From positions 1 through 42,999 of the IMG/VR virus record IMGVR_UViG_3300050821_015776: a stretch of DNA of 42,999 nucleotides. One strand, 5' to 3'. The translations under genes were made by a program, and so were the position numbers. Of the stretch, positions 1-42,999 are shown piece by piece. Origin of the DNA: a virus. Within the stretch, counting starts at the first letter, position 1. The number at the start of each line of letters is the position of its first letter. Under the pieces are notes generated by a model. It worked only from the letters and a program-made list of their open reading frames with translations. It searched no databases and was not told the origin of the DNA.

Positions 1-821
1 ATTGCACCGAGATTCGGCCCGGCGGTCGTAGTGGGCCTCACGTCATTAGAAATATATCCCTGGCCGCCCTGCTGATTCTCGTTGTCATACAGCGCGGTTT
101 CACCGACGACATTGTAGAGTTCACAGATTGGAAGTTTATTCGCGGGATAGGTAGGTGCGACGGGAGATGCGTTCTCAGCCCCCGTTGTCCATGCGAGCGT
201 GCCTGACGTGTCAATTGTAAGGACGTCAATGCGGGGATTAGAAACTGGACCAGTGACGGTTGGCGTTGAACCGCCGGTAAACAGGTATCGGGTGCCGTTG
301 ATGTAATAGCTTCCATCTTCTACATAGAGCTGCATCGTCTGCGCAGTCCATGTGCCACTCGTAACCGTGATGCCAGTGATATTGAAACTGGTCAAAAGGC
401 CCGTGATTCCATTCACGTTCTTGTTCAGGGAAAAGGGAACGATATTCGTCGAGCTGCCGGGCCATGCCCAGCCGACGTATGACAAGAGTACTTGGTTGGC
501 GCTCGATGCGGCTATCTGCGTTGAAGTCGTCAAATCGGGACGGCGAAGGAATTGAATGAGATTCGTGACGAAGCCGGCCGCCGTTCCGGGCGCTTTCACG
601 TCATTCGGATTAGTCGGGCTGCCGGTGACGGCCGTAACAGTGATTGTCGTCCCGTTTATCACAATCGGGATCACCTGATTGTTCGAGGGGCCGGTGCCTA
701 GCGCAAGGACGCCGAGCTGCTGATGCGTGAACAAAAAGCTTCCGCCCCGGGCGTCATCGCGTGCGGAATCAAGCTGACTTGCCCTGCCCGTCATGCCGGT
801 TGCAATTGGTCTGCTCTTCAT
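1..821 (-). CDS. tail/fibre-like virion protein, C-terminus cut by window edge
   Basis: The frame is open from an ATG at 821 down to base 1 with no stop, giving at least 273 residues, so this is the N-terminal part of a longer protein. It is rich in Thr, Gly, Ser and Asn. Around residues 175-195 it has the motif YYINGTRYLF and near the end YDNENQQGGQGYI, a pattern I associate with phage tail-fibre or baseplate-associated proteins that carry a carbohydrate- or appendage-like beta region. The start overlaps the stop of the next gene (ATGA at 818-821), indicating translational coupling at the distal end of the tail operon. There is no Shine-Dalgarno site. The role is inferred from composition and position downstream of the tape measure and hub. 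Confidence 0.75.
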   Translation of the reverse strand, partial: MKSRPIATGMTGRASQLDSARDDARGGSFLFTHQQLGVLALGTGPSNNQVIPIVINGTTITVTAVTGSPTNPNDVKAPGTAAGFVTNLIQFLRRPDLTTSTQIAASSANQVLLSYVGWAWPGSSTNIVPFSLNKNVNGITGLLTSFNITGITVTSGTWTAQTMQLYVEDGSYYINGTRYLFTGGSTPTVTGPVSNPRIDVLTIDTSGTLAWTTGAENASPVAPTYPANKLPICELYNVVGETALYDNENQQGGQGYISNDVRPTTTAGPNLGA

Positions 822-1372
822 GAAATGGTGATGTCAATTTCGAGGGTCGTATCGGTTCCACTGGATTTTGAGTAGGGCGAGCTAAATAGCGCGTGGTTGA
901 ACATGTTGCCGGAACCGATTAATGACGATCCTCCGATGAAGCTGCCGCACTCGTAATAAGTTCCGTTCGCAAGCGATGCATCCGGAAAGAAGAACTGGAG
1001 CTGGGCCTCGTTGAAGCCGAGGTCGGCCGCATAGGCGACAGTGGCCCGGTTCGTTGGTGTGGTTAGCGCGGTATCGCTGGCCGCCGGCGTGGTATTCCCA
1101 GTTCCGATCTCTCCCCAGGCTATCCCCAGTGGAAATGGATTTGACCCGGCGTACGCGCTGATTAGGTATTGCACAAGGATGTCCTTGCCATAATTGGAGG
1201 AATCAACTATTAGGTTCTTCTGCTCAACTTCGATTCTTCCGCCACTCAGCAGTTCCCGCGCGAGATCGAGTCTCCGAAGGTCCACAAGCGATTGATAGAG
1301 GTGCAGAGTACCTGCCGGGTGCGACCGGACAATGATCTTCCCTGAAACTGAAAGAGCCTCGCTGGTTTTCAT
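818..1372 (-). CDS. phage tail-associated protein of unknown function
   Basis: This 184-aa protein lies between the hub-like protein and the partial tail/fibre protein in the tail operon. Its middle part (GTGNTTPAASDTALTTPTNRAT, about residues 90-112) is a segment seen in many phage tail and fibre-associated proteins, followed by aromatic and beta-rich sequence ending in LEIDITIS. No catalytic motif is visible. The stop overlaps the next ATG. The leader at 1373-1439 has no Shine-Dalgarno sequence. A baseplate or fibre-connector role is inferred from gene order only. Confidence 0.7.
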   Translation of the reverse strand: MKTSEALSVSGKIIVRSHPAGTLHLYQSLVDLRRLDLARELLSGGRIEVEQKNLIVDSSNYGKDILVQYLISAYAGSNPFPLGIAWGEIGTGNTTPAASDTALTTPTNRATVAYAADLGFNEAQLQFFFPDASLANGTYYECGSFIGGSSLIGSGNMFNHALFSSPYSKSSGTDTTLEIDITIS

Positions 1373-1439
1373 TGGATGTGGGGTTATCTAAATCATAGCG
1401 ACGAATAGGCGGCAAAACCATAGAGCGGCTGTGGAGAAG

Positions 1440-2906
1440 TCAGCTCCATGTGAAGAAATCCCAGCGGAAGCTATCCCATACGTAGGGACTCGTTCCTGGC
1501 GTAGCACTCACGGCTTCGGTAAGCGTCGCGGTTTCCCCGACGACCTCAAGGTTCTCGTTAATCGTCGAGTCGTCCACCTGTGTCTGGGTCGCTTCTTCTT
1601 GGAGGAGTGTCGTCATGAGATCGGTGAAGGTCACGTTATCCGACCCGATGCACTCGACCTGGTATTCAAGCTGGCCGTTCGCGCCTGGCACGTAGCCGGT
1701 CGCTTCGACCCGCTTGATGACGAGCTGCTTGTCCGAGATCCCGAACGCAGGGAGATTGACGGTGATTACCTGGCCTATCGCGCATCCGGGGACGAGCGTC
1801 TTGAACTTGATGTCATACACCGGATGGCCGAACTGGAGGACGGCCGCCTGCGCCCGCTGCTGGGCCTCCGGAACCGATGTGATCTTCACATCGACAATGA
1901 CCGTCTGGTATTCGCCATAGGTGGCGATACTCGCCGCGTTGCCCGCGTGCGCGACGATTGGCACTTTCGCATTGCCATACACCTTCACGGTGTGGCCGTT
2001 GGCGGGTGCGCCGGCGGTGAACTGAATCCACCGTTGGGCGTCGTTATAGAGGACCTGCACCGAGCCGGGCGCCGTCTGGTTCGCCGTGCCGACAGTCTGG
2101 GCGACTCCGTCCAACGTTACCGTGATGGTGGCAATGTCGTAGGGATACGACGTGGTGAAGAACTGCGTAGTGCCATCGGTCGGAAAGCTGTCAGGCGTGT
2201 TCCCCGCGGTGAAGGTCTTCACATATGTGCCACCGATAACAAACACGCTGTTCTGCATGTTCTGCAGATTGAGATCCACGTCAAGCGAGTTCCATTCAAT
2301 CTTGCCGCTCGTCGCATCCACCGTGATAGGGGCGACACCGCCTTCGCCCACGGCGTTATCTACGTCGCCCAGGAAAAAATGGATGTCTTTGTTCGGATCG
2401 ATGTACCAGTCCCATCCGATGAGCTTCGCGAGCGACTGAAGGCACTTGGTCGGCTGCTGGTAATTGAACTTGATCGACGGCACGAGGAAATTCGCTTTCT
2501 GGACGTGGTTCGTCGTGAAGCCCTTGCCAACGGCAAAATTGGTGATGATGTCGACCACGATGTCGTGAGGGTCCATCATCGCGTAGTTCTTTTTGACCAG
2601 ATTCCCGTCGAGTAAATATCCGTAGTCGCTTACAGTGATTTGATTCGTAATGAGAAGACCTTCAATAGTTGCTTCCACTTCTGTCACCGTACCCCCAAAG
2701 ATGACTCCGGTGGAATCGTAGAGTTGAACAGAATTGCCGATCGCCGGAATGGTGATTGCCGGATAGGTTTGTCCGACACCTTGCCTAACCGTGAACTTCA
2801 AATTTGCGTTTTCCTTTGTGAGCACTGAAACGCAGTCGATAGATTTGTAATCGACCGACGATGAAATATCGGTACCATTGCATTTGACGATTACGGGATT
2901 CGTCAT
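1440..2906 (-). CDS. tail-tip/baseplate hub-like protein
   Basis: This 488-aa protein is encoded immediately after the tape measure gene with a 3-bp gap, the usual place for distal tail or hub proteins in siphoviruses. The N-terminal half contains FTVRQGVGQTYPAI and, at about residues 160-180, LAKLIGWDWYIDPNKDIHFF. This kind of sequence is typical of phage hub domains related to T4 gp27 and Mu gpD, in which a beta barrel is followed by a conserved W-x-I-D-P-N strand. The C-terminus is acidic and Thr-rich, then ends in WDSFRWDFFTWS, a short aromatic tail. The family placement is by motif and position; no peptidase domain is visible. Confidence 0.75.
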   Translation of the reverse strand: MTNPVIVKCNGTDISSSVDYKSIDCVSVLTKENANLKFTVRQGVGQTYPAITIPAIGNSVQLYDSTGVIFGGTVTEVEATIEGLLITNQITVSDYGYLLDGNLVKKNYAMMDPHDIVVDIITNFAVGKGFTTNHVQKANFLVPSIKFNYQQPTKCLQSLAKLIGWDWYIDPNKDIHFFLGDVDNAVGEGGVAPITVDATSGKIEWNSLDVDLNLQNMQNSVFVIGGTYVKTFTAGNTPDSFPTDGTTQFFTTSYPYDIATITVTLDGVAQTVGTANQTAPGSVQVLYNDAQRWIQFTAGAPANGHTVKVYGNAKVPIVAHAGNAASIATYGEYQTVIVDVKITSVPEAQQRAQAAVLQFGHPVYDIKFKTLVPGCAIGQVITVNLPAFGISDKQLVIKRVEATGYVPGANGQLEYQVECIGSDNVTFTDLMTTLLQEEATQTQVDDSTINENLEVVGETATLTEAVSATPGTSPYVWDSFRWDFFTWS

Positions 2907-2909
2907 ATA

Positions 2910-4652
2910 TCAGGATGCGTAGTTACGGGTCCTGAGCGACATATTGATCTGCTTTGCGAGCAAGTCCCCGATCTGGCGGATTGCCGACGAATCGGCCGGA
3001 AAGATCCCGCCATTGATGTTTATAACGATCTGCTGACCACCGGGACCGCCGGCTCCCATTGAAGACAGCGGCACGACTGCCTCCGGCCCCCCTTCCCCGA
3101 TAAGCGCAAGGGTCGGACCGGTGACTATCCCGCCAGCGGCGAGCATCGGGATGTCCGGGATATTAAATCCGAGATTGAGGGCGGGCGTGGCGATCTTCGT
3201 GCCGGGTATGGAAATGGACGGGAGCGAAATATGGATCGCATCAAGCGCATTGATGAAGGCGTTAATGCCCCAGATCTCGTAGTTAATGCCGTCCTTTATG
3301 GTCGTCTTGATGACGTTCCAAATAGTGCCGAGAAAGTCGGACATACCTTGCCACGCGGTGTTCCAGATATTTCCTATCTCTCCGAGCGAGGAACTAAACA
3401 GGCTCTTAACCCAATTCCAGCCGGTCGAGAAGAACGATTCGAGAGTTTGCCATGTAGCGACAAAGTTGTCGCGAATATAATCCCAATTCTCGACGACGGC
3501 GACACCAATCGCGACAAGTGCGGCGATCGCGACGGCTACGGCAGCGGCGATGCCTACGAAGGCGGCGCTCAATCCGGCGGTAAGCGCAAGGCCGACAGTC
3601 CCCACAACAACAAGGACGGTGCCGAGGATCGTGAGCATGACGCCGAGGACGCCGACGAACACAAGGAGCGCTTCGGTGAGCTTCGGGTGAGCGGTGATCC
3701 ACGAGTCTACTGCATCAATGATCTTTACAAACACTTCCAAAAGCTTAGTGAGCAACGGCAACTGGGTGCTTCCCATATCGGACAGGAGCTTATTAAAGCT
3801 GGCCATCGCTATGGAGAGCTGGCCGGTGAGTGTCTCAGCGTAGGCTTGAGATTGACCATTTACCGCGCCTTGAACCGCTTGCAATGCCTCCATGCCGGAG
3901 AGGCCGTCTTTGATCTGAATGCCGTAGGTCGCAAGAGCGCGGCCCTGGCCGTTCATGGCAAGAATGACCTGATTCGTGGCAGTCGCGAGGTCGATGTTCT
4001 TCGCGCGAGCGAGATCCATCGCGGCCTGGTTGACTTGCATCGCTTCGCTCACACTTTTGGTGGCCGTAAAGGCCTGTGAGAGGCTCCGCGTGCTATCAGC
4101 AATCGAAAAGCCCAGCGACACGTTTGCGGTAGCCTGGGTATCGAGTTTGCCGGTAATGTCATCAAGGCTGTCACCCTCAAGCTGCTGTGAATTCTGGAGG
4201 ATGTCAAGTTGGGCCTGATACTTGGCCATATTGACCTGATCGGTGGCGATTTTGGCGGCTGCGGCTTCGTGAGCGGCGGCGACTTTCTCCGTGCTGCCAG
4301 TGTGCGTGTCGAGGGTGGCGGTCGCTGACGCGATTGACGCCTTATAGCTGTCGATCTTGTCCTGAAGGAATTTGACCTGCGTCGCGTATGAGTTGCTGGA
4401 GGTGCTCGCGCCCGCCATTGCATCCGTCACGGCCTGCTTCAGATTGTCCTGGGATTCTTGAACGTTCGCCGCTGAATCGACGATGCCCACGTAGGCCGCG
4501 GTGATGGCGGCCCCTGCAATCGCAAGCTGCGTTCCCGCCGTAACGGCCGCCTGGCTCATATCCTTCAGGTTATTCTGAGCGTTCTCAAGCCCGGCCGCTG
4601 ATTGGTCGACCGCCTGGATGATAATTTCTAAAATTGATTGCGATGCGGCCAT
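2910..4652 (-). CDS. tail tape measure protein
   Basis: This 580-aa protein sets tail length and is probably released into the cell at infection. It shows the full tape-measure pattern: an N-terminal coiled region (VDQSAAGLENAQNNLKDM), long Ala/Thr-rich helices with QAQLDILQNSQQL, a hydrophobic central segment of about 60 residues (roughly 325-385, ALLVFVGVLGVMLTILGTVL and following), and a C-terminal GGIVTGPTLALIGEGGPEAV motif common in these proteins. It sits between the 98-aa membrane protein and chaperone genes upstream and the hub downstream. At 580 aa it is on the short side, implying a fairly short tail, by the general correlation between tape measure length and tail length. There is no Shine-Dalgarno site before the ATG at 4652. 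Confidence 0.93.
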   Translation of the reverse strand: MAASQSILEIIIQAVDQSAAGLENAQNNLKDMSQAAVTAGTQLAIAGAAITAAYVGIVDSAANVQESQDNLKQAVTDAMAGASTSSNSYATQVKFLQDKIDSYKASIASATATLDTHTGSTEKVAAAHEAAAAKIATDQVNMAKYQAQLDILQNSQQLEGDSLDDITGKLDTQATANVSLGFSIADSTRSLSQAFTATKSVSEAMQVNQAAMDLARAKNIDLATATNQVILAMNGQGRALATYGIQIKDGLSGMEALQAVQGAVNGQSQAYAETLTGQLSIAMASFNKLLSDMGSTQLPLLTKLLEVFVKIIDAVDSWITAHPKLTEALLVFVGVLGVMLTILGTVLVVVGTVGLALTAGLSAAFVGIAAAVAVAIAALVAIGVAVVENWDYIRDNFVATWQTLESFFSTGWNWVKSLFSSSLGEIGNIWNTAWQGMSDFLGTIWNVIKTTIKDGINYEIWGINAFINALDAIHISLPSISIPGTKIATPALNLGFNIPDIPMLAAGGIVTGPTLALIGEGGPEAVVPLSSMGAGGPGGQQIVININGGIFPADSSAIRQIGDLLAKQINMSLRTRNYAS

Positions 4653-4674
4653 TACAAGCGAGGATCGGTTGCGA

Positions 4675-4971
4675 TTACGAGGCGGTTTGTGGTTTAAGTG
4701 AAGTGAGAGATGCAGGCAAGCCCGTCCATTCGCACTGGCGGCAACGCACGGTGACTATTCTCATTTTGGGGATGAGATAGAGGACAATCGTTGCTGGTAT
4801 TAGGACAACATCAGCGAGCGCCAATGGAATAAATAGCAGCCATCCGATAATCGGGATGCACATCGTTATGATGCTACCGAGCACGAGCGATAGCGCAAGC
4901 CCCGCCGGACTCCACGACCACAATTTGTATGCATGGCACTGTGGGCAAGCAATCTTTAGCTTTTTGAGCAT
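4675..4971 (-). CDS. small zinc-ribbon membrane protein
   Basis: This 98-aa protein begins with CPQC (residues 9-12), continues with two hydrophobic helices (about 24-44 and 46-68, GSIITMCIPIIGWLLFIPLA) and ends with CRQC (77-80). The two Cys pairs on either side of a membrane hairpin suggest one zinc site formed on the cytoplasmic face. Its position between the GT chaperone and the tape measure is unusual for a membrane protein. No function can be assigned; a membrane factor, lysis aid or envelope-directed component are possibilities. Confidence 0.7.
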   Translation of the reverse strand: MLKKLKIACPQCHAYKLWSWSPAGLALSLVLGSIITMCIPIIGWLLFIPLALADVVLIPATIVLYLIPKMRIVTVRCRQCEWTGLPASLTSLKPQTAS

Positions 4972-5048
4972 TGATGAATGTAAGTTGTTTATTGACCTTT
5001 CCTATCGTTTTAACAATGCCCCGAAACCGGCGTTTTGGCAAGGGGCGG

Positions 5049-5572
5049 CTACTGCTTTGCCCGGCGGTTCGCCTCCTCTGCTTCCTCATGGAGCATTGAG
5101 AGAACGACGTCGATAAACCATTTTGGCTGGTCCTGATACGTGTGCCAATCCCAGTGCATTTCCCTGCAAATGATCGCAGCGATCTGTTCGGGATAGAGCT
5201 CGGCACGTCCAACGGCGAAGAAGGTGTGCCAGCGGTGATCAACTTCGCCTGCTAAAAATTTCCGTCAGCGAGCGTTTTAACTTCGTTGAGGATGGTGGTG
5301 TATTCCGCCGCGGGAAGGTCCTGTAAACGATCGGCGAGGTTCTCTGTTGAGCCTTCGAGCGAGACAACTGCCGTTTCGATGAGTTTTATGTTGCGCTCGA
5401 TACCCACGACCATCGACAGTTTGGCTTGTGGCGAACCGTCGGCCTGCGCGGACACTTCCTGTGAACCGAATATCTGCCTGAGAACGTTGTTCACTTCCCG
5501 GGCGGTCAAGAACGTCTTTACGATGACCTGCCGGCCGCCGGGCGTGGTGAATTCTTTTGTTTCTCTTTCCAT
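5049..5572 (-). CDS. tail assembly chaperone GT fusion made by -1 frameshift
   Basis: Reading gene G from 5572 and slipping back one base on A AAT TTT (5255-5261) just before the G stop yields a continuous 174-aa product: 106 residues of G followed by 68 new residues starting LAGEVDHRW and ending EEANRRAKQ with the stop at 5049-5051. The extension has good protein-like sequence (EMHWDWHTYQDQPKWFIDVV) and no in-frame ATG of its own until well inside. This is the lambda gpG/gpGT arrangement: the fusion binds tape measure and major tail protein during tail assembly, and the ratio of G to GT is set by frameshifting. The position between major tail protein and tape measure fits exactly. The slip itself is inferred. 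Confidence 0.85.
5252..5572 (-). CDS. tail assembly chaperone, unshifted G product
   Basis: This 106-aa zero-frame product has the stop TAG at 5252-5254. It contains FTTPGGRQVIVKTFLTAREVNNVLRQIF and a helical, acidic C-terminus ending LADGNF, fitting small tail chaperones that bind the tape measure. It lies between the major tail protein gene and the tape measure region. The final codons AAT TTT are part of the slippery heptamer that gives the GT form. There is no clear Shine-Dalgarno sequence before the ATG at 5572 (leader rich in A and C). Confidence 0.85.
   Translation of the reverse strand: MERETKEFTTPGGRQVIVKTFLTAREVNNVLRQIFGSQEVSAQADGSPQAKLSMVVGIERNIKLIETAVVSLEGSTENLADRLQDLPAAEYTTILNEVKTLADGNF
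5255..5261 (-). promoter_or_regulatory. programmed -1 ribosomal frameshift site
   Basis: On the minus strand the codons GGA AAT TTT TAG contain A AAT TTT, which fits the X XXY YYZ rule (X=A, Y=T, Z=T), directly before the G stop. Shifting -1 reads TTA GCA GGC and opens 68 further codons. The site abutting the stop codon may itself help pausing; no strong pseudoknot was obvious by eye. Confidence 0.8.
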
Positions 5573-5599
5573 GGTGAGGATTTTGTTTGATTAACTGAT

Positions 5600-6796
5600 T
5601 TAGTAGCTTGCGACCGTATTCGTCGTTGTGACGGCGATCATCTCGCTCGTGGTCGTGTTATAGACGGCCTTAAATTTTAACGTTTGGTAAACGAGGTCCT
5701 TAACTTTGAACGGACGCGAGATGTCTTTGAAGTACACCTTGTCGAACAGTATTTTCACTGTCGGATGCGAGGGGACAACACCGATGCTCACGTCGCTGTT
5801 TGTAAGAGAGACGAGCATCGCCTGCGCGACGTTCGGGGTGACGAGTGCAACTGTCTTGAAATCCGACTCGTTCTGCCAGATGGCTTCGAGCGTACCCTCC
5901 ACCTTGAACTCCTTATTGAGAAAGTCCTGGGGGGCGACATTCGAGAGCACCTCCTGATCTTCGAGGTTCGAGTCGATCGTCATTTTGAACGATTTGAGCT
6001 TGACCGGGTTTCCGCTGAACGTGAGCGTTCCGATCGCGCCGGTGGATGCTACCGAGAGGTCGAACGCCGACGCGCTGACGATTGCCGCCACCATGGCGCC
6101 TGCCGGGACATTGGTACCTGATACGGGCATACCGACGTTCAGGAGCGTCGTGCTGATGCTGAGACCCGTCACGTGGATTGTTGTTGCCGCTGTGCCGGTC
6201 GCCGTTAGCGTGCCGTTTACTCCGGCGACGCTCGGCGCATACGAGAACGACATGTACTGCGGGAGGAACCGGTTTTCCGCCGCGATCGACGGGGTGAACG
6301 TGCTCTGCGATACGCCCTTCAGCGCTTTTACCGAAAGCGACAGTTCCGCGAATTTCTTCAGCTCAACGTCGAATTCCGTCTTATGGATCACGCCGAGCGC
6401 GTGTGAGTAGTCCACGCCCGCCAGCGGATCATGGATGAACATCGTGAGTGACTGGTGCTGTGCAGACTCGCCGACGGTCGCCTTGTGGTCATAGACGGTC
6501 GATTCGCCCGCGTGCGTGCTGTCGGCGTTCGCGCCGAGCTGCGCGAGGAGGAGGAGCGGCAGACTCTGGTCCGTTACCGGAACTTTGACCGTACCTTCCA
6601 TCCAGTTTTTGACGCGGAATTCGCCTACGGAATCTTCGATGATCCCGTACGCTTCATCCTGCTCGACATTTTCGAATTTCTCGTCAAGCGAGAGGTCGCT
6701 GAACGGGAGCCAATATGAGGCGGAGCCGATAGCAGTCCCGCGGGTCGTTTCCTTTGCTATGCCGACTGCCCCTAATCTTCCTATTCCTTTTGGCAT
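5600..6796 (-). CDS. major tail tube protein
   Basis: This 398-aa protein is the tail tube building block by position (head-tail joining genes upstream, G/GT and tape measure downstream) and by its N-terminus, MPKGIGRLGAVGIAKETTRGTA, a common opening of phage tail tube proteins, with beta-rich sequence after it. The C-terminal part contains KSFKMTIDSNLEDQEVL, typical of the tail tube fold. About residues 190-268 form an inserted Thr/Ser/Gly module (SISTTLLNVGMPVSGTNVPAGAMV) that also appears, diverged, in two other virion proteins here (8003-8875 and 8956-9603). The insert probably decorates the tail surface; that is inference. Confidence 0.85.
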   Translation of the reverse strand: MPKGIGRLGAVGIAKETTRGTAIGSASYWLPFSDLSLDEKFENVEQDEAYGIIEDSVGEFRVKNWMEGTVKVPVTDQSLPLLLLAQLGANADSTHAGESTVYDHKATVGESAQHQSLTMFIHDPLAGVDYSHALGVIHKTEFDVELKKFAELSLSVKALKGVSQSTFTPSIAAENRFLPQYMSFSYAPSVAGVNGTLTATGTAATTIHVTGLSISTTLLNVGMPVSGTNVPAGAMVAAIVSASAFDLSVASTGAIGTLTFSGNPVKLKSFKMTIDSNLEDQEVLSNVAPQDFLNKEFKVEGTLEAIWQNESDFKTVALVTPNVAQAMLVSLTNSDVSIGVVPSHPTVKILFDKVYFKDISRPFKVKDLVYQTLKFKAVYNTTTSEMIAVTTTNTVASY

Positions 6797-6798: not shown

Positions 6799-7053
6799 TT
6801 ATTCGTTATTGGTTTCTTTACTGTCTTCGACCTTTTCAGGTTCCGGAATCATCGGCTTCCGCCTTGCGAGATAGATCTTCTGCGCGTCATCGATAGTGGC
6901 CGCGCGCACGGAGATGGCCTGATAGCCATTCGTCTCGGGGTAGAAATATTCGTTCTCAAGGACGGAGGCCGCGATTGCGGTCGTCGGCTGAACGTCCTTG
7001 TTTGCGGCGGAATCGCCGTCGATCATTTTGTTTTGAGTTGAGGATATATCCAC
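6799..7053 (-). CDS. small hypothetical phage protein between tail genes
   Basis: This 84-aa protein uses GTG at 7053 and stops 2 bp before the major tail protein start. It contains NEYFYPETNGYQAISVRAATIDDAQKIYLARRK and a charged tail. The sequence resembles a short scaffold- or connector-associated protein, but no family is recognised. Tight spacing on both sides supports a real operon gene. Confidence 0.65.
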   Translation of the reverse strand: MDISSTQNKMIDGDSAANKDVQPTTAIAASVLENEYFYPETNGYQAISVRAATIDDAQKIYLARRKPMIPEPEKVEDSKETNNE

Positions 7054-7070
7054 GAATGTAATGAGTTAAT

Positions 7071-7535
7071 TTATTGGACTGCCGCGGGCACGAGGACCTT
7101 TGCTTTCAATTGTAGGGCGTAAATCACATAAGTGATAGAGCCGCTACTCACAGGCCCCGGAGGGTCAAGGATCGCGGGTGATACGCCTCCGACCGCCATG
7201 CCCTGCAAGGTCACATCGTTGTCGAAAACCTGCAACGTGTTGTCAATCAGGCTTTCGAGGTAAGTGGGGTCGGTGGGCCGCAGGTTCTCCGGCGTTGTGA
7301 CCACCATGACATACCATGTGTATTCGCGCAGGTTCGTGGCGACATCGTAGTACTCGGAAGCGCTTACCGTGGGCGGAATGACGAGCGCGGCCGGAAACGA
7401 CCCCCAGGTACGATCGAGCGGGTTGAGTTTCGTGAAATCATCGGCACTTACCGATCCGAGCACACCGCTTGCGACGAGCGACCGCAGATCGGTGATGATG
7501 GATTGCTTTATGTTTTGTGCCGGTGTTTTAGCCAT
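7071..7535 (-). CDS. tail terminator-like protein
   Basis: This 154-aa protein overlaps the preceding HK97 gp10-like gene by 8 bp and precedes the tail tube operon. It starts with a helix (IKQSIITDLRSLVASG) and follows with beta strands including YYDVATNLREYTWYVMVVTTPE and a final strand ALQLKAKVLVP. That layout and position match tail terminator or completion proteins, which form the ring capping the tail tube at the head end. No direct motif proves the family, so the call rests on gene order and architecture. Confidence 0.65.
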   Translation of the reverse strand: MAKTPAQNIKQSIITDLRSLVASGVLGSVSADDFTKLNPLDRTWGSFPAALVIPPTVSASEYYDVATNLREYTWYVMVVTTPENLRPTDPTYLESLIDNTLQVFDNDVTLQGMAVGGVSPAILDPPGPVSSGSITYVIYALQLKAKVLVPAAVQ

Positions 7536-7998
7536 TGGCTTGGTTTGCGATCGCTAGGGTTACCTGGTCGAGCGCGGTACCGAACAGCGTGTCAATCTCC
7601 GGCTGTGCCGACGCAACGATTCTTTCCATGAAGGGGTTTGCCTTCGTGCCAGGGTGATGGACAAGCGTGCCATAGATCTCGCCGGTCTGCGCATTCGCAA
7701 GGACACGCTTATTCACGGGCCGGATCTCATGCGGCGCCGTGCCGAACTCGACATAGGGCGCGTAGCTCGCCCGCGGATACCATCGCGCCATCAGATTGCC
7801 GACCTCGAACGCCCAGTTCTGCACAAGGTAGCCGGTGCGGATGGGAACGGTTGCCGCGGTCGTGAACTTCGCAAGGATCGCCTGCGCTGCCACGATTGCC
7901 CGCTGCACGATCGGTGCGGAGATCGCCGGATAGTTGGCAAGGGCTTCCTGGAGCTTTGGGAGGTTGGGGATGGTTACTCTAAATTGCGTGTCGGCCAT
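7528..7998 (-). CDS. HK97 gp10-like head-tail joining protein
   Basis: This 156-aa protein carries the family signature of HK97 gp10-like proteins: VPIRTGYLVQNW, then YAPYVEFGTAPHEIRP, then a C-terminal HHPGTKANPFMERIV. The proteins join tail to head or act as tail completion factors in siphoviruses. It starts at ATG 7998, 4 bp after the connector stop, and overlaps the terminator-like gene. Confidence is high because the YVEFGT...HPGTK..PFM pattern is quite specific. Confidence 0.88.
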   Translation of the reverse strand: MADTQFRVTIPNLPKLQEALANYPAISAPIVQRAIVAAQAILAKFTTAATVPIRTGYLVQNWAFEVGNLMARWYPRASYAPYVEFGTAPHEIRPVNKRVLANAQTGEIYGTLVHHPGTKANPFMERIVASAQPEIDTLFGTALDQVTLAIANQANG

Positions 7999-8002
7999 GT
8001 GA

Positions 8003-8875
8003 TTAGAAAATGAGTGCCGGACGGCGGTAATTATTGATCACATTCTGATCGAAGGAATCGAGGCCATCGCGCCACGCGGTCGTAGCGCCCGCGATGTTTT
8101 CGCTTGCTTTGCCGTCGAGCTGACGCCGCTTGTAAATGCGGACCACAATGTTTTCACAAAGATTGGAGAGATCACTCGGAAGCTGATGGCTTGCGCCATT
8201 TCCGGCGTTCTGCCAGTCCACCGGATACCCGGCGACGTAGGTAGCGCGGATCATGTTGTTGTAGAGTCCGGGAATCGAGCCGTAGACGCGGATGATGCCG
8301 GAACGACCCTGCTGGTCGAGTTCGAACTGGTCCTGAATAAAGGATGTCCATTGAGGATTGCTCGGGGTGCCGGAGCGCCACTGGAATGAGATGAGGCCGC
8401 TGATCTCGAACACGGCTCCGGTCAGCGAAACGCTCGCGGGTTGGCTCATGGTGAGCGCTCCCGAAGTGCCAACAGTTGCGACGGTCGTGCCCTGCGGAAA
8501 GAGGCCCTGAATGTTGTACAGCGGCATGCCGGCAACGATGCCGATATACGGAGCGACGGTCACGGATGTGGAGCCTGCTGTCAGATTCCCGGTGACCGTG
8601 AGATAGGTGACGGGGGAATTGCGGAGGACAAGGTGTTCCTGGTTCCTTCCCCGCGCAGTATAGACGTCGTTCGTGTACGTTTTCTGCACGAAATGGCCGT
8701 CGTTCGGGTAGGCTTCGAGGCCCGTCTTGCCACACTCGCGCTCAATGTAGTCGGTGACGGAATTGATCATGCGCGTCAAAACCGCATCTTTGTCGTCGAT
8801 AGTGATGTCCAACCTGTCTTTAACGCGCGATAAAGTTGTGAGGGCGTATTTTGCAACCTGTTCTTGAGTGGTCAT
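8003..8875 (-). CDS. head-tail connector (gp6/gp15-like adaptor) with inserted module
   Basis: This 290-aa protein begins TLSRVKDRLDITIDDKDAVLTRMINSVTDYIERECG, the usual opening of the phage head-tail connector family. The C-terminus has LCENIVVRIYKRRQLDGKASENIAGATTAWRDG, again typical of adaptors that bind the portal. The middle (about 85-150) is enlarged by a Ser/Thr/Gly segment (GNLTAGSTSVTVAPYIGIVAG) resembling modules in the tail tube and 8956-9603 proteins. At 290 aa it is longer than the usual 100-200 because of this insert. Confidence 0.85.
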   Translation of the reverse strand: MTTQEQVAKYALTTLSRVKDRLDITIDDKDAVLTRMINSVTDYIERECGKTGLEAYPNDGHFVQKTYTNDVYTARGRNQEHLVLRNSPVTYLTVTGNLTAGSTSVTVAPYIGIVAGMPLYNIQGLFPQGTTVATVGTSGALTMSQPASVSLTGAVFEISGLISFQWRSGTPSNPQWTSFIQDQFELDQQGRSGIIRVYGSIPGLYNNMIRATYVAGYPVDWQNAGNGASHQLPSDLSNLCENIVVRIYKRRQLDGKASENIAGATTAWRDGLDSFDQNVINNYRRPALIF

Positions 8876-8882
8876 TGTAGAT

Positions 8883-8930: not shown

Positions 8931-8955
8931 GAACGAAGATTCGAATGCCTATTGA

Positions 8956-10992: not shown

Positions 10993-11015
10993 TTGTTTGT
11001 TGTTGTGTGATAGGT

Positions 11016-32669: not shown

Positions 32670-32687
32670 TTGATTGCGTTGATGAAT

Positions 32688-35164: not shown

Positions 35165-35815
35165 ATGAACGATGATGAGTGGATCGATGATGGGGTGGAA
35201 GATGAACCAGTCTACCCATACGACGCATTTGATAAAAGGGACTATCGTAAGGTGCTTTCGGAGGAGCCCGACAGGATTGTTTACCCCGGCTATAGTGATT
35301 CTTATTTCCAGGCGAGCAAGTATCTAATGAAGGGGATCGTAGAAGGCGAGCTCGACGCGCGCGCATATGGTACGGCAACGACGTTTCTCTTTCGCCATTA
35401 CATTGAATTGAGTGTGAAGGAGCTCGTGCTCAGTGCTCGTTCTATAAAGAGTGACGGGACAAATGCTGAAGAGATCAAGAAGATCAAGTGGGAGCATTTC
35501 CTGAAGAAGCTCTGGAATGAATTTTGTGATGCTGCGCCTCATAGAATAGGTGAGAAGTTTTGGCGACAAATCGATAAGGAATACATCACCGGCCTGATCG
35601 AGGAGTTTGACGACAAAGACCGGAAGAGCATGGCGTTCCGATATGACGATCAGCAGAAGTACAACACTGACTTCAGGGAGCTGTACGAGAACCTTGATCA
35701 CATTCATGACGTGTTGAATAAGCTCAGCGCCTATCTAGTCGATAGATATTTGAAGAACTTGGATGGCAATTGGAACCTCGCGCTGTCCTACCTGGATGTT
35801 CCTGATTTTGATTAG
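35165..35815 (+). CDS. HEPN-like helical protein
   Basis: This 216-aa protein is mostly helical. Its most telling stretch, TATTFLFRHYIELSVKELVLSARSI (about 71-95), resembles the conserved first helices of a HEPN-like group linked to toxin-antitoxin and defence loci. A classical R-x4-6-H active site is not clearly present (RHYIEL only). It stands alone with its own promoter and a strong terminator, as expected of a moron. A GGAGG lies 14 nt before the ATG, too far for an ideal site. Function as RNase or binding factor is inference. Confidence 0.6.
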   Translation: MNDDEWIDDGVEDEPVYPYDAFDKRDYRKVLSEEPDRIVYPGYSDSYFQASKYLMKGIVEGELDARAYGTATTFLFRHYIELSVKELVLSARSIKSDGTNAEEIKKIKWEHFLKKLWNEFCDAAPHRIGEKFWRQIDKEYITGLIEEFDDKDRKSMAFRYDDQQKYNTDFRELYENLDHIHDVLNKLSAYLVDRYLKNLDGNWNLALSYLDVPDFD

Positions 35816-37073: not shown

Positions 37074-37090
37074 AACTCGCTCTTAGCGAG
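37074..37090. repeat. short stem-loop over the ATPase stop codon
   Basis: ACTCGCT (37074-37080), CTT, then AGCGAGT (37084-37090) form a perfect 7-bp stem covering the stop codon of the ATPase gene. No T-run follows, so it may stabilise the mRNA end. Confidence 0.5.
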
Positions 37091-38372
37091 TGCGCCGCGA
37101 AGGACGAGGCGAGCGATCCTTTCGAGGGGGCGTCTCTTTCGGCGTGAGGAATTGCAGGATGGGGGCGTCCGCGGCATTGCGCTCGACGCAGTAGCGCCGG
37201 AAGCTCTCCGCAATGACGGCGCCGGCCGGCGGTTCAGTGCCGGTCTTGCGGATGGCCCTCAGCGCCTTTACCACGCCGGAGTTGACGGGGGTTGCGCCCT
37301 TCACGTGATAGCAGATGAACTCGTGGTTCGCGAGGCCGACGATGAGATTGGCCGCGCCCTCGTCCAGGTAGTTCTCCTCGATCTCCTTCGCGTCGCGCCC
37401 GCTCACGCGATAGACGATCGCGTTCTGGCAGTTGCCGAAGAGGGATGAGAGAGAAGGAAAGTTCTCTAGATACTGCGACGCCATGCACAGCGAAATATTG
37501 TATTTACGCAGCTCTGCGAGGAAGGTCTCGAAGTCAACGCCATGGAGAAAATTCTGCACCTCGTCCACGAAGACGAAGAACTGCGGCGCGTCCGGCTTCC
37601 GGCGGAGGGCCGCGATGGAGATGTTCCCAAGGATAATGGAGCCGATCAGTTGTGACGCTTCGGACCCCAGGGCGCCCTTGGACACATCGACCAATATGAT
37701 TTTGCGCTCGTTCATGGCACGCAGAAAATCTATGGGCCGTTCACGCGACATGAGGGGACGAAGCGTGGGAAGGACGAAGCCGTCGATCTTGTTGAGCGGC
37801 GGCGAGAACTTCGCCATCTGCTCGGTGGTGCGGAGTTTGGCGTCGTACTGCTCTGAGAAATCCGCGAGGAGCGGGTTCGTGCATTTGGAAAGGATGTCTT
37901 TGCGGAACGTGTCGCGGGCGATAAAGAGATAGATGGCGGGGATATTGATAAAGCCGTAGTACTCCGTGATGGCGAGAAGCGCACCCATGAAGATGCGCTC
38001 TGTTTCGTCTCCCCAGGCGTTGCGGAAGATCGATTTGAACATGCTGACGAAGAGGGAAATGTAAAGCTGCTCCTCCTCCTTCGACGCGTATTGCGGGATG
38101 ATTCCGGGGACATGGCTTGCGGTGGGGCGAACGAGGATCACATCGTTCATCCGGTGTTTAGGAATGTAATGGAGAATCTTATCAACCGCCGTGCCGTGCG
38201 GGTCCTGAAAAAGGCCGCCATATCCCTGCCGGATCAGCGAAATGAACTGGTTAGTAAGCATCGTTGACTTGCCTACGCCGGTTTGCCCAACGCAAAAACT
38301 GTGCGGCTTCATATTGATCGAGAACGGCGTGTTTACCGCCGTGCCGATCGTGATGGGGATATTGTCATTCAT
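37083..38372 (-). CDS. TraG/VirD4/HerA-like DNA-translocase ATPase B
   Basis: This 429-aa protein (ATG 38372; a GTG at 38390 is also in frame) has Walker A GQTGVGKST (29-37), QDPHGTAVD (56-64) as in TraG-type and HerA-type ATPases, Walker B FFVFVDE (265-271) and a motif LRKYNISLCMASQ (288-300) equivalent to the glutamine sensor of coupling proteins. No N-terminal membrane helices are present, unlike VirD4. Such soluble ATPases occur with replication-relaxation proteins in mobile elements. The basic C-terminus (RKDRSPRPSRRTR) may touch DNA. It is the last gene of the mobilisation-like operon. Confidence 0.85.
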   Translation of the reverse strand: MNDNIPITIGTAVNTPFSINMKPHSFCVGQTGVGKSTMLTNQFISLIRQGYGGLFQDPHGTAVDKILHYIPKHRMNDVILVRPTASHVPGIIPQYASKEEEQLYISLFVSMFKSIFRNAWGDETERIFMGALLAITEYYGFINIPAIYLFIARDTFRKDILSKCTNPLLADFSEQYDAKLRTTEQMAKFSPPLNKIDGFVLPTLRPLMSRERPIDFLRAMNERKIILVDVSKGALGSEASQLIGSIILGNISIAALRRKPDAPQFFVFVDEVQNFLHGVDFETFLAELRKYNISLCMASQYLENFPSLSSLFGNCQNAIVYRVSGRDAKEIEENYLDEGAANLIVGLANHEFICYHVKGATPVNSGVVKALRAIRKTGTEPPAGAVIAESFRRYCVERNAADAPILQFLTPKETPPRKDRSPRPSRRTR

Positions 38373-38381
38373 GTCCTTCGT

Positions 38382-38424
38382 CCTTCCCACCGTGCGAGGC
38401 GGACACCGCCTCGAAGCGGGAAGG
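38382..38424 (-). promoter_or_regulatory. leader hairpin that covers a ribosome binding site
   Basis: Outer stem CCTTCCC (38382-38388) / GGGAAGG (38418-38424) and inner stem CGAGGCGG (38395-38402) / CCGCCTCG (38406-38413) are perfect. On the mRNA the 3' outer arm is GGGAAGG, the best Shine-Dalgarno match for ATPase B, 9 nt before its ATG. Folding would hide it. Confidence 0.6.
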
Positions 38425-38490
38425 TACGAGGGACGGAGTACCCGGAATCCCCTGGGGGAAGCCGATCATTATTAAGTGTGTCATTTCTGC

Positions 38491-38670
38491 TTAAGAAGTC
38501 GAGGCGCGGTTGGGGCAAGTCTTCGCCTGGTGACCCTCTGTTTGGCAAAGACTGCATTTCTTTGGACCGCGAGATGAGTTGTGAGCGGCCTGATCCTGTG
38601 GTGAGAGCTCAACGTACACTCTGCCCTCGTGGACGATGAAGGACTGTCCCTGCAGTTCGAAGATGTTCAT
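38491..38670 (-). CDS. 59-aa CCHC zinc-knuckle protein
   Basis: ATG 38670, stop 38491-38493, with an AAAGGT site upstream. The sequence MNIFELQGQSFIVHEGRVYV forms likely strands, and residues 39-52 read CSLCQTEGHQAKTC, an exact C-x2-C-x4-H-x4-C zinc knuckle as in retroviral nucleocapsids, preceded and followed by basic residues. Zinc knuckles bind single-stranded nucleic acid. It lies between the replication-relaxation-like gene and ATPase B, so a role in handling the transferred strand is plausible inference. Confidence 0.75.
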   Translation of the reverse strand: MNIFELQGQSFIVHEGRVYVELSPQDQAAHNSSRGPKKCSLCQTEGHQAKTCPNRASTS

Positions 38671-38694
38671 ACGTTACCTTTCGTGTTGGTGGCG

Positions 38695-39543
38695 TTATTC
38701 GATGAGTCCGTGCGGCCGAACGTCAAAATCTTTCGGCGCGTAGAAGATCTTCTCCGTGGGCCGCGTGGTGATGGAGTCAAGGTCGGTGATGTGGGGCCAC
38801 AGATACGGGAACTGCCCCGCGATCCGGTTCACAAAGTTCTCCACCATGGCGCGTTCGCGAAAGATGAAGAGGACTTTGCCCTTCTGCTTCCGCATGAGCT
38901 CGTTGTACCGGCGCACCTTGAGCACGATGTCGCTCTCACCGTTCACGCTTGAGGGTTCCGAGTTGGCGTACTCGATCCATATTGGTTCGCCGCCAAGGGT
39001 CGCCTGCGCGTCGGGATAGAAAGAGATCACTTCGCCATCGACGTCCACGGTCGTCTTCACATCCTGCTTCTGCTGGCGCCAGTCGTCGAGGGCGGCGCCG
39101 AACGCGTGGTCGAGCGCCAGGTGGATGATCGTGATGACGCGGTCATGGTCAACCCGACTCTCCGCTTTCGATCGCCATGCAATCGGATTCTCGATGACCG
39201 CCGACGCCTTCGCTCCTCCTTGGTCGGTGAGGTAATGGAAGTTCGGTTTCGGCCTGATCCTGCCATCGGGCAACGCGAGCTTGTTCACAGTGCCGCATTT
39301 CCGGCAGATGATTTCCCTAAAGAAATCCTCCCGTTGTTTTCCGCCTTCCACGCGCCCGAGGAGTCCGATCAGGCATAGCTGGCGGAGCCGCTTCCGGAGG
39401 GAGACGACGTTGCGGTCGGACAATACGGCAAGCTCGTCGGCGGTTAGGAAGCTGAACTTACCGACGTAAAGATAAATGTCATCATCCTCACTCCGGCGAT
39501 AGAGGCCTCTTTTTTGCGGGCTTTGGTTTAGGGATCGCGGCAT
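38695..39543 (-). CDS. replication-relaxation family protein (relaxase-like)
   Basis: The ATG at 39543 has AAAGGAGA 6-7 nt upstream; a longer ATG start at 39603 is possible. The 282-aa product has an N-terminal winged helix (DIYLYVGKFSFLTADELAVL, residues about 22-65), a Cys pair CRKC (80-83), then a domain with FYPDAQATLGGEPIWIEYANSE and ESDIVLKVRRYNEL. The spacing PD-x12-E-x17-K (Asp178, Glu191, Lys209) resembles a PD-(D/E)xK-like nuclease core, as in Replic_Relax proteins of mobile elements. It overlaps ATPase A by 56 bp. Nicking at an origin is inferred from the family. Confidence 0.75.
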   Translation of the reverse strand: MPRSLNQSPQKRGLYRRSEDDDIYLYVGKFSFLTADELAVLSDRNVVSLRKRLRQLCLIGLLGRVEGGKQREDFFREIICRKCGTVNKLALPDGRIRPKPNFHYLTDQGGAKASAVIENPIAWRSKAESRVDHDRVITIIHLALDHAFGAALDDWRQQKQDVKTTVDVDGEVISFYPDAQATLGGEPIWIEYANSEPSSVNGESDIVLKVRRYNELMRKQKGKVLFIFRERAMVENFVNRIAGQFPYLWPHITDLDSITTRPTEKIFYAPKDFDVRPHGLIE

Positions 39544-41035
39544 GGACGTCTCCTTTCTCAAGGAAACGAGCTTCCGCTTCTTGGAGGATGCGGTTGACTT
39601 CATCGGTGGGTATTGCCTGTTTTTGGAGGGCTTGCTTACATTCTAGAATTGTTTTGGAATTGAGCAAGCCGGCATAGTCCGTCACCAGGGGCACCTTGAA
39701 AAAGCGAACCCCTTGGGGCGTCTTGATGTAGCACTCACGCTTCCGGAGGAAGACGATGCGCTCCGCGAGCTGGGCGATTTTCTCCTCGCGAGTCCAGTCC
39801 TCCTGGCCGTCCCGTTCTTTGCGAAGGCGCGGCTCGAACCGGGTACCGCGGCTGACGGAGCTCGACATCGAATACCCGCCACCCTCGGTCTTTCGTTCGC
39901 CGGACTCTGCCCAATTGGATTGGTCGCCCCACCCGCTGTTCTCAATCTCGTAGGCGACCTTCTCGTATTCCGTGACATATCGGAAGCGCTCCTCCTTGCA
40001 CTTCCGCGCGTTGGCTTCCAAGAACCAGAATTCCTCGGCCCACATCTTGGCTTCGGGGATCGGGCTGCCGCCGAAAACGACTTTGATCTGCGCATTGGTC
40101 TGCATGGACCCCAGGAGATGATGCTTCCCGGCAAATTGTCCCAAGTGCTGAAAGACAAGCGTCACCCGCAACCCGGACTTGGTGACCTCATCGAGGATGC
40201 GTCCGTCCTCGTCGGATAGATAATTGCTCGCCTCGTCGAAATACGCGAAACATTTTTTGGGGTCGTTGGCGTTCATCATCGCCGCGTCGAAAAGCTCCGA
40301 GACCATGAGCGACGCGAACACCCTGGCCGAGTCGCGGTCCAAATAATCGGAGTGCTCAAGATTCACGAGGACGATCGCCTTTTGCCGGATGCACTCGGCG
40401 AGGGAGATCGATTCTCCCTGGACGCCCATGAACCGGATGACCGCGGGGGAACTAAGGAAGCGGCCGAGCCGGTTCTGGGTGGAAAGCACATGGGTGTCCC
40501 ACTCGCGCAGTGTTTTGATGTACTGCAGTGTCTTCCACTGCTGCCGCACGCGTTCGTTTGCGATCGAGGAGATGGCATAATTGCGCAGTCCAGGGTTCGC
40601 AAAGTCGAGGAGCTGCGCGGCATGGTGGAGAGGTTCGCCGGTCTCGGCCATGAACTGGACAACCATCTTGATGATCCGTTCGAGGGTCGGCTTGTCATTC
40701 AAGTTCGATTCGCCCCAGGGCTTCACGAGCAGGGACGCCGTGCGGTTCACGTGGGTCGAAACCTGGCGCCCCGGCCTGAGTGCGAATGGGTTGTACGGGA
40801 CGACGCAGTCCGGGCTCGACGGGTCGATCAGGATCACCGGCCGCTTCGGCCGCTGGTATGAGAGGAAGCCCACGAGCGAGCGGTACATCCTCCCGTGCCA
40901 GTCAAGCGCGAACACCGCGGCGTCGCCGTTCACGATGTGTTTGCGGATGCAGAACTCGCACCATTTGGACTTGCCGCTTTGCGTGGTGCCGCCGCACATG
41001 CAATGAGTCGATAGACGATACTGGCTAGGCAGCAT
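39488..41035 (-). CDS. TraG/VirD4/HerA-like ATPase A
   Basis: This 515-aa protein starts at ATG 41035 behind AGGAGG (5-nt spacing). It has Walker A GGTTQSGKS (15-23), ALDWHGRMY (43-51), Walker B CFAYFDEAS (262-270) and a glutamine motif GLRVTLVFQHLGQF (288-301). The region after residue 330 is charged and helical. Like ATPase B it lacks membrane helices. Its Walker A is only 15 residues from the start, so the protein begins directly with the motor domain. Two different TraG-like motors in one operon suggests a heteromeric machine or separate steps. Confidence 0.85.
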   Translation of the reverse strand: MLPSQYRLSTHCMCGGTTQSGKSKWCEFCIRKHIVNGDAAVFALDWHGRMYRSLVGFLSYQRPKRPVILIDPSSPDCVVPYNPFALRPGRQVSTHVNRTASLLVKPWGESNLNDKPTLERIIKMVVQFMAETGEPLHHAAQLLDFANPGLRNYAISSIANERVRQQWKTLQYIKTLREWDTHVLSTQNRLGRFLSSPAVIRFMGVQGESISLAECIRQKAIVLVNLEHSDYLDRDSARVFASLMVSELFDAAMMNANDPKKCFAYFDEASNYLSDEDGRILDEVTKSGLRVTLVFQHLGQFAGKHHLLGSMQTNAQIKVVFGGSPIPEAKMWAEEFWFLEANARKCKEERFRYVTEYEKVAYEIENSGWGDQSNWAESGERKTEGGGYSMSSSVSRGTRFEPRLRKERDGQEDWTREEKIAQLAERIVFLRKRECYIKTPQGVRFFKVPLVTDYAGLLNSKTILECKQALQKQAIPTDEVNRILQEAEARFLEKGDVHAAIPKPKPAKKRPLSPE

Positions 41036-41288
41036 AGCTGCCTCCTATTCCAGTACCGCCACCCCGCCGCGTCGCGACGGATCGGGTACCTGGCCGGTGC
41101 TGATAAGCAATTTCGAAGCGATAGTGAGAAATAGGACAGGTACCCGAGCCGGAGCGAGGGCGGGGTGGCGAATCAGTAGCGTGCGTTAGCACATTGATTT
41201 TTCGGTAATTATTAAAGGCACGGCACTTCTTCGCGACAATTTTTTTCGGCGTACCGGCGATAGCAGGACGATACGATTTGGATTTCAT
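41025..41288 (-). CDS. possible 87-aa basic protein spanning a hairpin
   Basis: ATG 41288 overlaps the previous stop (ATGA) and has GGAGG 7 nt upstream. The first 30 residues (KSYRPAIAGTPKKIVAKKCRAFNNYRK) look like a basic protein; the rest is encoded by the strong inverted repeat at 41057-41170 and has unusual composition. The stop falls inside ATPase A. It could be a leader whose translation opens the hairpin, rather than a functional protein. Confidence 0.4.
   Translation of the reverse strand: MKSKSYRPAIAGTPKKIVAKKCRAFNNYRKINVLTHATDSPPRPRSGSGTCPISHYRFEIAYQHRPGTRSVATRRGGGTGIGGSYAA
41057..41170. repeat. 114-bp nested inverted repeat upstream of ATPase A
   Basis: Outer arms 41057-41068 and 41159-41170 (CGCCACCCCGCC/GGCGGGGTGGCG) are perfect 12-mers; inner arms 41083-41092 and 41137-41146 (CGGGTACCTG/CAGGTACCCG) are perfect 10-mers. 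The repeat ends 11 bp before the AGGAGG of ATPase A. A candidate origin of transfer, attenuator or regulatory leader. Confidence 0.7.
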
Positions 41289-41887
41289 ATACCGTCCTCC
41301 TCATTCTCGGTAATGCGAAAGAAGCGGTTACGAAATGTATCAAGAGCTTCTTCCACCGAGGTTCCAAAGTCACTAACATTCCAGATGTCTTTGAATTCTT
41401 GGCGAATGAATGATCGACCCCTCTCGACCTTGGCTGCTGCGTGGAGCCGCTCAAGAAATTCAAGGGTCTCCCGTTCGCTGCGACTGGGTTGATGACGCGG
41501 CGGACGAGAGGGTGAGGGGAGACAGAGGGGTTTGGGTGGATCGGGGCGAGGCGAAAGCGGTTTGATCTGACGGACGACAGCCCTCCGGATTTCAAAACCC
41601 GGCGGGCTGATGATCCTAAGGCCGATGGCGAGGGAGTGATACGCGGAAGGATCGATCGCCGCGTCCGCCGATGGAAATTGCAAAACCCAGCGGTTGGTGA
41701 TTGCCTCAGCCTCATGGGAAAGTTGGCGCCTGATTTCTTCCGTGCTCCCATCGGTGTCGAGCACGAACTGACAAAACGTGGAGATCTTGGTACACGCCAG
41801 AATGAAATCCAGTGTGACGCTGATCTCTTCTCTGCTTTTGAGTTGGGGTATGAAGGTGAATGAGAAATCCAGCTCATCGTGTCTCAT
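41285..41887 (-). CDS. unknown 200-aa protein of the mobilisation-like operon
   Basis: This protein overlaps its upstream neighbour by 4 bp and its downstream neighbour by 4 bp (ATGA at both ends), giving strong evidence for real, coupled translation. The N-terminal part includes FSFTFIPQLKSREEISVTLDFILAC, the middle is Pro-rich (PLSPRPDPPKPLCLPSPSRPPRHQP) and the C-terminus is helical with RFFRITENEEDG. No known domain is seen. It may be a partner of the ATPases or the HTH protein. Confidence 0.65.
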   Translation of the reverse strand: MRHDELDFSFTFIPQLKSREEISVTLDFILACTKISTFCQFVLDTDGSTEEIRRQLSHEAEAITNRWVLQFPSADAAIDPSAYHSLAIGLRIISPPGFEIRRAVVRQIKPLSPRPDPPKPLCLPSPSRPPRHQPSRSERETLEFLERLHAAAKVERGRSFIRQEFKDIWNVSDFGTSVEEALDTFRNRFFRITENEEDGI

Positions 41888-42147
41888 CGGCCACCCCCGA
41901 AGTGTCCTTCGCCGAGGAGCCGGCGATAGACGCGCTCGACCACGGGTTCAGGGATGCGGAGCATCACCCATTTGCGGGGTTTTCGATGGCCCGTTTTGGA
42001 AGGGGGGCGTTCGTGCAGAGAGGTTCGGCGACTGATCTTGATTACGCCGGGTTCATTGGCGAAGAGGTCGCGGATGAGATCGGTTGAGGCGTTCCAGCAG
42101 GTGGCGAGCTCAATGACGGAGAAATGCCGCTCACGTGGATTGAACAT
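41884..42147 (-). CDS. excisionase/MerR-like HTH protein
   Basis: ATG 42147 follows GAAGGAG (5-nt spacing), better than a longer start inside the repeats. The 87-aa protein has FSVIELATCWNASTDLIRDLFANEPGVIKI, a MerR/excisionase type winged HTH, and ends KWVMLRIPEPVVERVYRRLLG. This RIPE.V.ERV.RRL ending is a pattern I recall from many small HTH proteins of Acidobacteriota. It is the first gene of the operon and lies next to direct repeats that could be its binding sites. Confidence 0.75.
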   Translation of the reverse strand: MFNPRERHFSVIELATCWNASTDLIRDLFANEPGVIKISRRTSLHERPPSKTGHRKPRKWVMLRIPEPVVERVYRRLLGEGHFGGGR

Positions 42148-42487: not shown

Positions 42488-42582
42488 ACATCGCGCCAAA
42501 TCAAGGAGGAGTCGCGGGTGGTAAGTCCGCTAGGTGAGTGAAAAGAGCATAGCATCTGAATTGAGGAAGCGGAAGGTAAAAT

Positions 42583-42795
42583 ATGACTGACATTGAGCTC
42601 GCCCTTGAATACTTGAGTAAGCAGGGTGCGATTGTTTCCATGACTCCGGAAAATCGGGAGTTGGGTACGCGGGTCCTGTCATTTCCGAATGGAGATCAGT
42701 ATGAGCTTACCGACGACGAGATCCTGGATTTGAAGGTGCAAGGGAAGTTGTCGCACGAGGGAATTACGGAAGTAAAAGGCGCGCCCGAAGAATGA
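42583..42795 (+). CDS. small acidic hypothetical protein
   Basis: This 70-aa protein (MTDIELALEYLSKQGAIVSMTPEN; GDQYELTDDEILDLKVQGKLSHEG) is alpha/beta and acidic. GGAAGG lies about 7 nt upstream of the ATG. It stands alone between the terminator and the tRNA-like fragment. No family recognised. Confidence 0.55.
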   Translation: MTDIELALEYLSKQGAIVSMTPENRELGTRVLSFPNGDQYELTDDEILDLKVQGKLSHEGITEVKGAPEE

Positions 42796-42897
42796 AAAGG
42801 CATGTACTTGTGGCGTACTTCAAGTCGGTGTTTCTGACGTTTCGAGCGTTTCCTGCTTCTCAGAGAAGTCAGTAAGTTGAACAGAATCAGCGGCTTG

Positions 42898-42926
42898 GAC
42901 AAGTTCGATCCTGTCCTCCGCCACCA
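42898..42926 (+). other. tRNA 3'-end fragment, likely attachment-site core
   Basis: GTTCGATC, CTGTC and CTCCGCC-A-CCA (42903-42926) read as the T-loop, 3' T-stem, 3' acceptor strand, discriminator and CCA of a tRNA. The 5' T-stem is imperfect (GACAAG where GACAG is expected) and no GGCGGAG acceptor 5' strand, D-arm or anticodon arm occurs in the preceding 100 bp. A 3' fragment without its 5' half is typical of a phage or island att core. No integrase is in the window. Confidence 0.65.
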
Positions 42927-42999
42927 TAGAATCAATGGTTTACCTGTCATTCATTCAAAACTGCGCCCGGACCAGCCCGCGTTAAGCTTCGCGACCATC

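Follow-up and report, generated by a model that had tools for sequence, protein, structure and literature searches.

Initiation of translation without a Shine-Dalgarno (SD) site is usually seen as a trait of host lineages. In Bacteroidota and their phages, such as Bacteroides phage B40-8, SD sites are absent and leaders are unstructured and G-depleted (8 to 12% G in B40-8), a loss that is host- and genome-wide because the anti-SD sequence is sequestered (PMC9976891). Leaders of the Bacteroidota type are A/T-rich and favor A at positions -3 and -6 (PMC6847099). In phage T4, early messages with GGAG in their SD sites are told apart from later ones by RegB, while middle and late GGAG messages resist cleavage and keep their G (PMC3014915). 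For phages that encode the ribosomal protein bS21, which have Bacteroidetes hosts and genomes of up to 331 kb, altered ribosomes were proposed to select phage messages late (PMC9723584).

The 42,999-base virus record IMGVR_UViG_3300050821_015776, analyzed over its whole length and called the window below, belongs to a family of soil bacterial viruses and resembles each of these systems in part. As in Bacteroidota, SD sites are absent and leaders are depleted of G, but only in one phage unit; C stays near 30% in the leaders, other phage genes keep SD, and the known hosts of related phages use SD. As in T4, early SD messages are distinct from later ones, but here it is the late leaders that lose G. 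Selection of phage messages late would be an idea similar to that proposed for bS21. A Pfam and PHROG search with 104 proteins gave no regB homologue and no bS21 among the matches listed (first 25 families). In a literature search that had most subscription journals and all preprints outside its scope, we found no earlier description of a split confined to one gene unit of one virus lineage with SD-using hosts. Such a split makes SD-independent initiation testable inside one genome and one cell, provides natural A/C-rich leaders as a resource for expression work, and cautions that SD sites are unreliable for host prediction or phage gene calling.

Two classes of translation start in the window

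Genes of the window were assigned by PHROGs and Pfam matches. They include the HK97-type capsid, portal, large terminase, and tape measure of an HK97-type tailed phage (Caudoviricetes), with structural matches to phrog_10, phrog_2662, phrog_38, and phrog_991. The features are as follows.

818-6796, minus strand: tail section of the late SD-less unit, including a tail protein, the baseplate hub, and the tape measure (PHROGs tail matches), with starts at 1372, 2906, 4652, 5572, and 6796 that lack SD in the window and in orthologues
6799-9603, minus strand: connector and head genes, all SD-less, with starts at 7053 (GTG), 7535, 7998 (neck), 8875 (head-tail adaptor), and 9603
9748-10992, minus strand: major capsid protein, HK97-type, GTG start (phrog_10, E 9e-26)
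10993-11015, minus strand: capsid leader ACCTATCACACAACAACAAACAA, a 23-nt intergenic spacer with zero G
11016-17288, minus strand: further late-unit genes without SD, with starts at 12476, 13073, 13599, 14331, and 17288 (GTG)
17293-21031, minus strand: minor head (17875-18918), portal (18869-20224), and neighbors, SD-less except for an SD-like stretch before 18918
21118-22806, plus strand: two rightward SD-bearing genes with low GC3, between structural genes
22694-24689, minus strand: TerL (ATG at 24136) and probable TerS (24105-24665), the TerS start SD-less
24727-25110, minus strand: private SD-bearing gene (GTG start, duplex energy -12.2) inside the leftward region
25147-32855, minus strand: leftward small genes and private genes, all SD-less, with SSB (30219-30716) and a Sak4-like AAA ATPase (31571-32488)
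26895-28748, plus strand: four mostly private SD-bearing genes with low GC3, starts at 26895, 27170, 27443, and 28257
33210-34508, plus strand: small ORF and DNA primase (33477-34508), SD-bearing (PHROG DNA primase, E 6e-44)
35165-35815, plus strand: private gene with SD
37083-42147, minus strand: SD-bearing conserved module of a TraG/TrwB-like ATPase (37083-38372), Replic_Relax (38695-39543), a phrog_5156 protein (39488-41035), and three more genes (41025-41288, 41285-41887, and 41884-42147)

The original prediction distinguished 13 SD-less starts (set A) from 13 starts with GGAGG-type sites (set B), and these two classes are real, with all 26 starts present. Duplex energies computed against 5'-ACCUCCUUU-3' range from -4.0 to +2.3 in set A (mean -0.23) and from -5.8 to -12.2 in set B (mean -9.07), without overlap, against a baseline of -2.84 over the full set of 1,420 ATGs of the two strands. 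The list of SD starts needs some correction: 29886 is doubtful, as it has no homologue and falls below the coding-score caller, and SD sites at 41887 and 35165 were overlooked, as were many more SD-less genes. The p value for A versus B (1.6e-5) is circular since the sets were picked by eye, and the test was therefore repeated without SD in the choice of starts. With each start fixed by its distance to the previous stop, which is blind to SD, 21 operon-spacing starts in the window have a mean of 0.02 kcal, 11% G, and no SD. Among homologue-supported genes, SD is found in 0 of 30 in the leftward unit, a count that does not include its two exceptions, TerL and the minor head gene, and in 7 of 8 others, so that gene selections blind to SD still separate (Mann-Whitney p 1.8e-5). 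The operon-spacing method was used instead of a maximum-codon-score start caller, which put host starts too far upstream. It agrees with annotation for 28 of 34 starts in phages lambda, GBK2, P12026, and Dagobah and recovers their SD; phage B40-8, with only late starts listed, is not part of this count.

Misannotated starts were rejected as the source of the split: most late genes have no alternative strong-SD start within their first 17 codons, and alignments with orthologues mostly begin at codon 1, those of the capsid at residue 1 in most cases. An artefact of base composition was rejected as well, with G at 0.21 to 0.33 in late-strand coding sequence versus 0.03 to 0.22 in leaders. Of the two exceptions, TerL has its ATG abutted by GGAGG or a GAAGGAGG-type sequence at a spacing of 0 in most orthologues; this stretch encodes the C terminus of TerS, whose stop codon overlaps the TerL ATG. 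Before the minor head gene, the SD-like GGCGG lies inside the portal ORF, and the next ATG, at 18903, is without SD.

Conservation of the split and SD use by hosts of relatives

A search with the capsid protein found 73 loci. In 55 of the 56 that have enough genes, extending to 28% capsid identity, the virion genes are without SD, and the capsid-strand genes have mean energies of -2.5 to +1.4 kcal and less G in leaders than in coding sequence; the sole exception, L101 (26% capsid identity), is a normal SD phage. Gene families were also clustered across ten genomes for SD counts. SD is borne by the integrase in 6 of 7 members, DUF932 in 4 of 5, and the primase in 4 of 6, and the Replic_Relax family mostly keeps it, so that the genome-wide absence of SD typical of Bacteroidota does not extend to these phages. 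In the virion families SD is almost absent, with TerL and the minor head start as exceptions. With families labeled early or late from gene function, and with TerL left out, SD occurs in 7 of 196 late members versus 17 of 31 early members (Fisher p 3e-12, for rows that are not independent). Primase orthologues carry SD in G008, G003, and pp13; a clear SD is lacking at the primase genes of G004 and G009 and, in several relatives, at the TraG-like genes. The SD split is inherited within this HK97-type tailed-phage lineage.

Two relatives have identified hosts. The first, G009, has 81% capsid identity to the window (its capsid homologue was found by PF05065) and lies in an Acidobacterium MAG (Acidobacteriota). 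The empty site in three related genomes joins base 116,035 to ~168,238, and a 23-bp repeat at the prophage matches the 3' end of a tRNA-Met gene, which together indicate a real prophage of ~52 kb. In this host, 40% of genes have SD, leader G is 37%, and ribosomal-protein leaders are purine-rich; a 16S gene is missing from the MAG, and in relatives of its family the 16S tail, GGATCACCTCCTTTCTAA, is intact. For Acidobacteriia, a published survey puts the share of SD genes at 45% (PMC10783764). The second relative, with 37% capsid identity to the window, is a prophage in the isolate Parerythrobacter lacustris, a host with 37% SD genes; its virion genes are SD-less, and its primase and integrase bear SD. 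Neither host has the SD-blind ribosomes expected from a Bacteroidota-type background.

The late genes of unrelated capsid-bearing prophages of Terriglobia, the same class, have SD in 51% of cases, and those of the control phages lambda, GBK2, P12026, and Dagobah in 47 to 95%. A trait imposed by the host was rejected, since both the relatives' hosts and other prophages of Terriglobia use SD. Capsid homologues are also present in small-genome MAGs labeled Kaiserbacteria, Peribacteria, and an unnamed bacterium (L105, L106, and L107), which could come from phages that infect very small bacteria or from wrongly binned contigs.

Leader anatomy and a proposed route of initiation

A profile of 286 distinct leaders, drawn from 18 genomes or loci, shows that in SD-less leaders G declines from ~25% to ~9% over positions -23 to -21 and remains low through -1. 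The depletion is strongest where the intergenic gap is at least 12 nt, and where genes overlap G still drops, to ~11 to 20%, within the upstream coding sequence. A has maxima at -20 to -19 and at -6 to -4 (52% at -6, 49% at -5, 42% at -4, and 37% at -3), and C has its maximum at -15 to -7. A k-mer search of the leaders gave no motif beyond composition and stop codons. The avoidance covers all G and exceeds mere SD avoidance, and the capsid leader is G-poor and SD-less in close orthologues too. These leaders are predicted to lack structure: the predicted unpaired probability peaks over -24 to -1, at 0.53 to 0.65 versus ~0.42 in host genes, and the predicted MFE of the start region is -4.9 versus -10.7 in host genes (p 5e-18), less than half as stable. 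In a shuffle control, this predicted openness arises from composition alone.

The two gene sets suggest translation by different routes. We consider it probable, if well short of certain, that the late unit uses SD-independent initiation on unstructured G-free leaders and that the early and lysogenic genes use SD initiation. In this proposal, the virion, packaging, SSB, and Sak4-like recombinase genes of the leftward unit would initiate from leaders with almost no G over -22 to -1, a stretch about the size of the 30S footprint. The near absence of G would leave the leaders unstructured and without pairing to the 16S tail, and the host 30S subunit could bind them directly. Ribosomal protein S1 would probably help; its role, like the actual protein yield from such leaders, is something we infer. 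Genes for integration and the start of replication would initiate at ordinary SD sites, and the split would track the transcription unit and probably timing, as read from gene function, rather than recent gene origin. In published reporter tests, a lack of local structure was enough for SD-independent initiation (PMC3121790).

Open-leader binding alone does not explain strict G avoidance by a whole unit in SD-using hosts, which gives a phage-made switch some weight, though we think it unlikely. An early product might mask or cut the anti-SD sequence, or recruit ribosomes to A/C-rich G-free leaders, and so silence host and early phage SD messages while sparing late ones, in the manner of T4 RegB, which cleaves GGAG within the SD sites of early messages and so inactivates them (PMC3014915). 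Early SD and late G-free leaders are the pattern that such a product would select in hosts with G-rich leaders, and avoidance of G beyond SD avoidance points the same way. However, among the matches listed for the 104 non-structural proteins, none is to a ribosomal protein, an initiation factor, or a RegB-like RNase, and the window and the Parerythrobacter prophage share mostly structural genes. If true, a ribosome switch would shut off the host and keep virion proteins locked during lysogeny.

Two hairpins occur in leaders of the family. One of the CGAGGA/TCCTCG type, at 8883-8897 (minus strand) before the head-tail adaptor start at 8875, is found in ~30 relatives, among which one pair shows a G-C/A-U exchange, and masks an SD-like GAGG. 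In the distant relatives L080 and L090, a hairpin GTAGCT..AGCTAC lies directly before the capsid start, with no G-free leader.

Gene origin, host history, and operon structure

The original prediction read the split as a backbone fitted to an SD-less host background that had received accessory genes from SD-using hosts. SD-less starts of the structural genes, kept by selection, are supported; an SD-less host behind them is not, since the identified hosts of relatives use SD, with an intact anti-SD sequence. In favor of this reading, the Bacteroides phage is equally depleted of G, and eight mostly private SD genes differ in GC3 (0.59 versus 0.71, p 1e-4), from which some of them are probably recent arrivals. 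These eight are the subset that fits the prediction. Conserved core genes, namely the primase and the Replic_Relax/TraG-like module, carry SD, as do the integrase and DUF932, which are core in relatives. In codon usage, the conserved SD genes match the backbone (RSCU distance 0.061, null 0.049 to 0.105; GC3 p 0.98). Conversely, seven window-private genes of the leftward unit (25641, 28822, 30734, 32688, 26578, 13847, and 14029) are SD-less and also low in GC3. Start class follows the transcription unit, not gene origin or core versus accessory status, and the SD-less-host reading is largely contradicted and now improbable.

A host jump is equally improbable. It would make the usual hosts SD-blind and the Acidobacteriota and Parerythrobacter prophages outliers with old leaders, and most relatives are indeed metagenomic contigs with no host assigned, with the capsid gene in just 1 of 399 sampled Terriglobia genomes. 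Nevertheless, the branches at 81% and 37% capsid identity to the window diverged deeply, both sit in SD-using hosts, and both keep the split; strong SD sites on early genes would be useless in an SD-blind host.

Translational coupling, in which tightly packed late genes are reinitiated from the previous stop and SD is needless, is very doubtful. Many late genes do overlap or lie a few bases apart, as in the Parerythrobacter prophage, where a stop codon, CCT, and ATG follow one another. However, the capsid gene and the genes at 8875 and 9603, with spacers of 23, 80, and 144 nt before them, are equally SD-less, G depletion is greatest at gaps of at least 12 nt, and late operons of control phages, packed as tightly, have SD. 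Leaderless messages, predicted for 9.7 to 19.4% of genes in Acidobacteria (PMC3160421) and hinted at by TATAAT at about -13 in some Parerythrobacter prophage leaders, are scarcely credible here, as each late start codon would need its own promoter directly upstream, even inside overlapping ORFs, and the A/C-rich leaders of the window's clade have no -10 motif.

Three genes or gene pairs of the window are unusual in other respects. The TraG/TrwB-like ATPase gene adjoins the Replic_Relax gene (37083-41035, minus strand), an arrangement in a phage that is kept in several relatives and looks like a plasmid-type module. A LAGLIDADG homing-endonuclease-like gene (30734-31180, minus strand), itself without SD, lies inside the SD-less unit. 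At 25147-25332 (minus strand), a 61-aa protein with the motif YTIKxGPAVSQKEL is strongly conserved in 8 genomes, and its fold prediction has a pLDDT of 72 and a pTM of 0.41.
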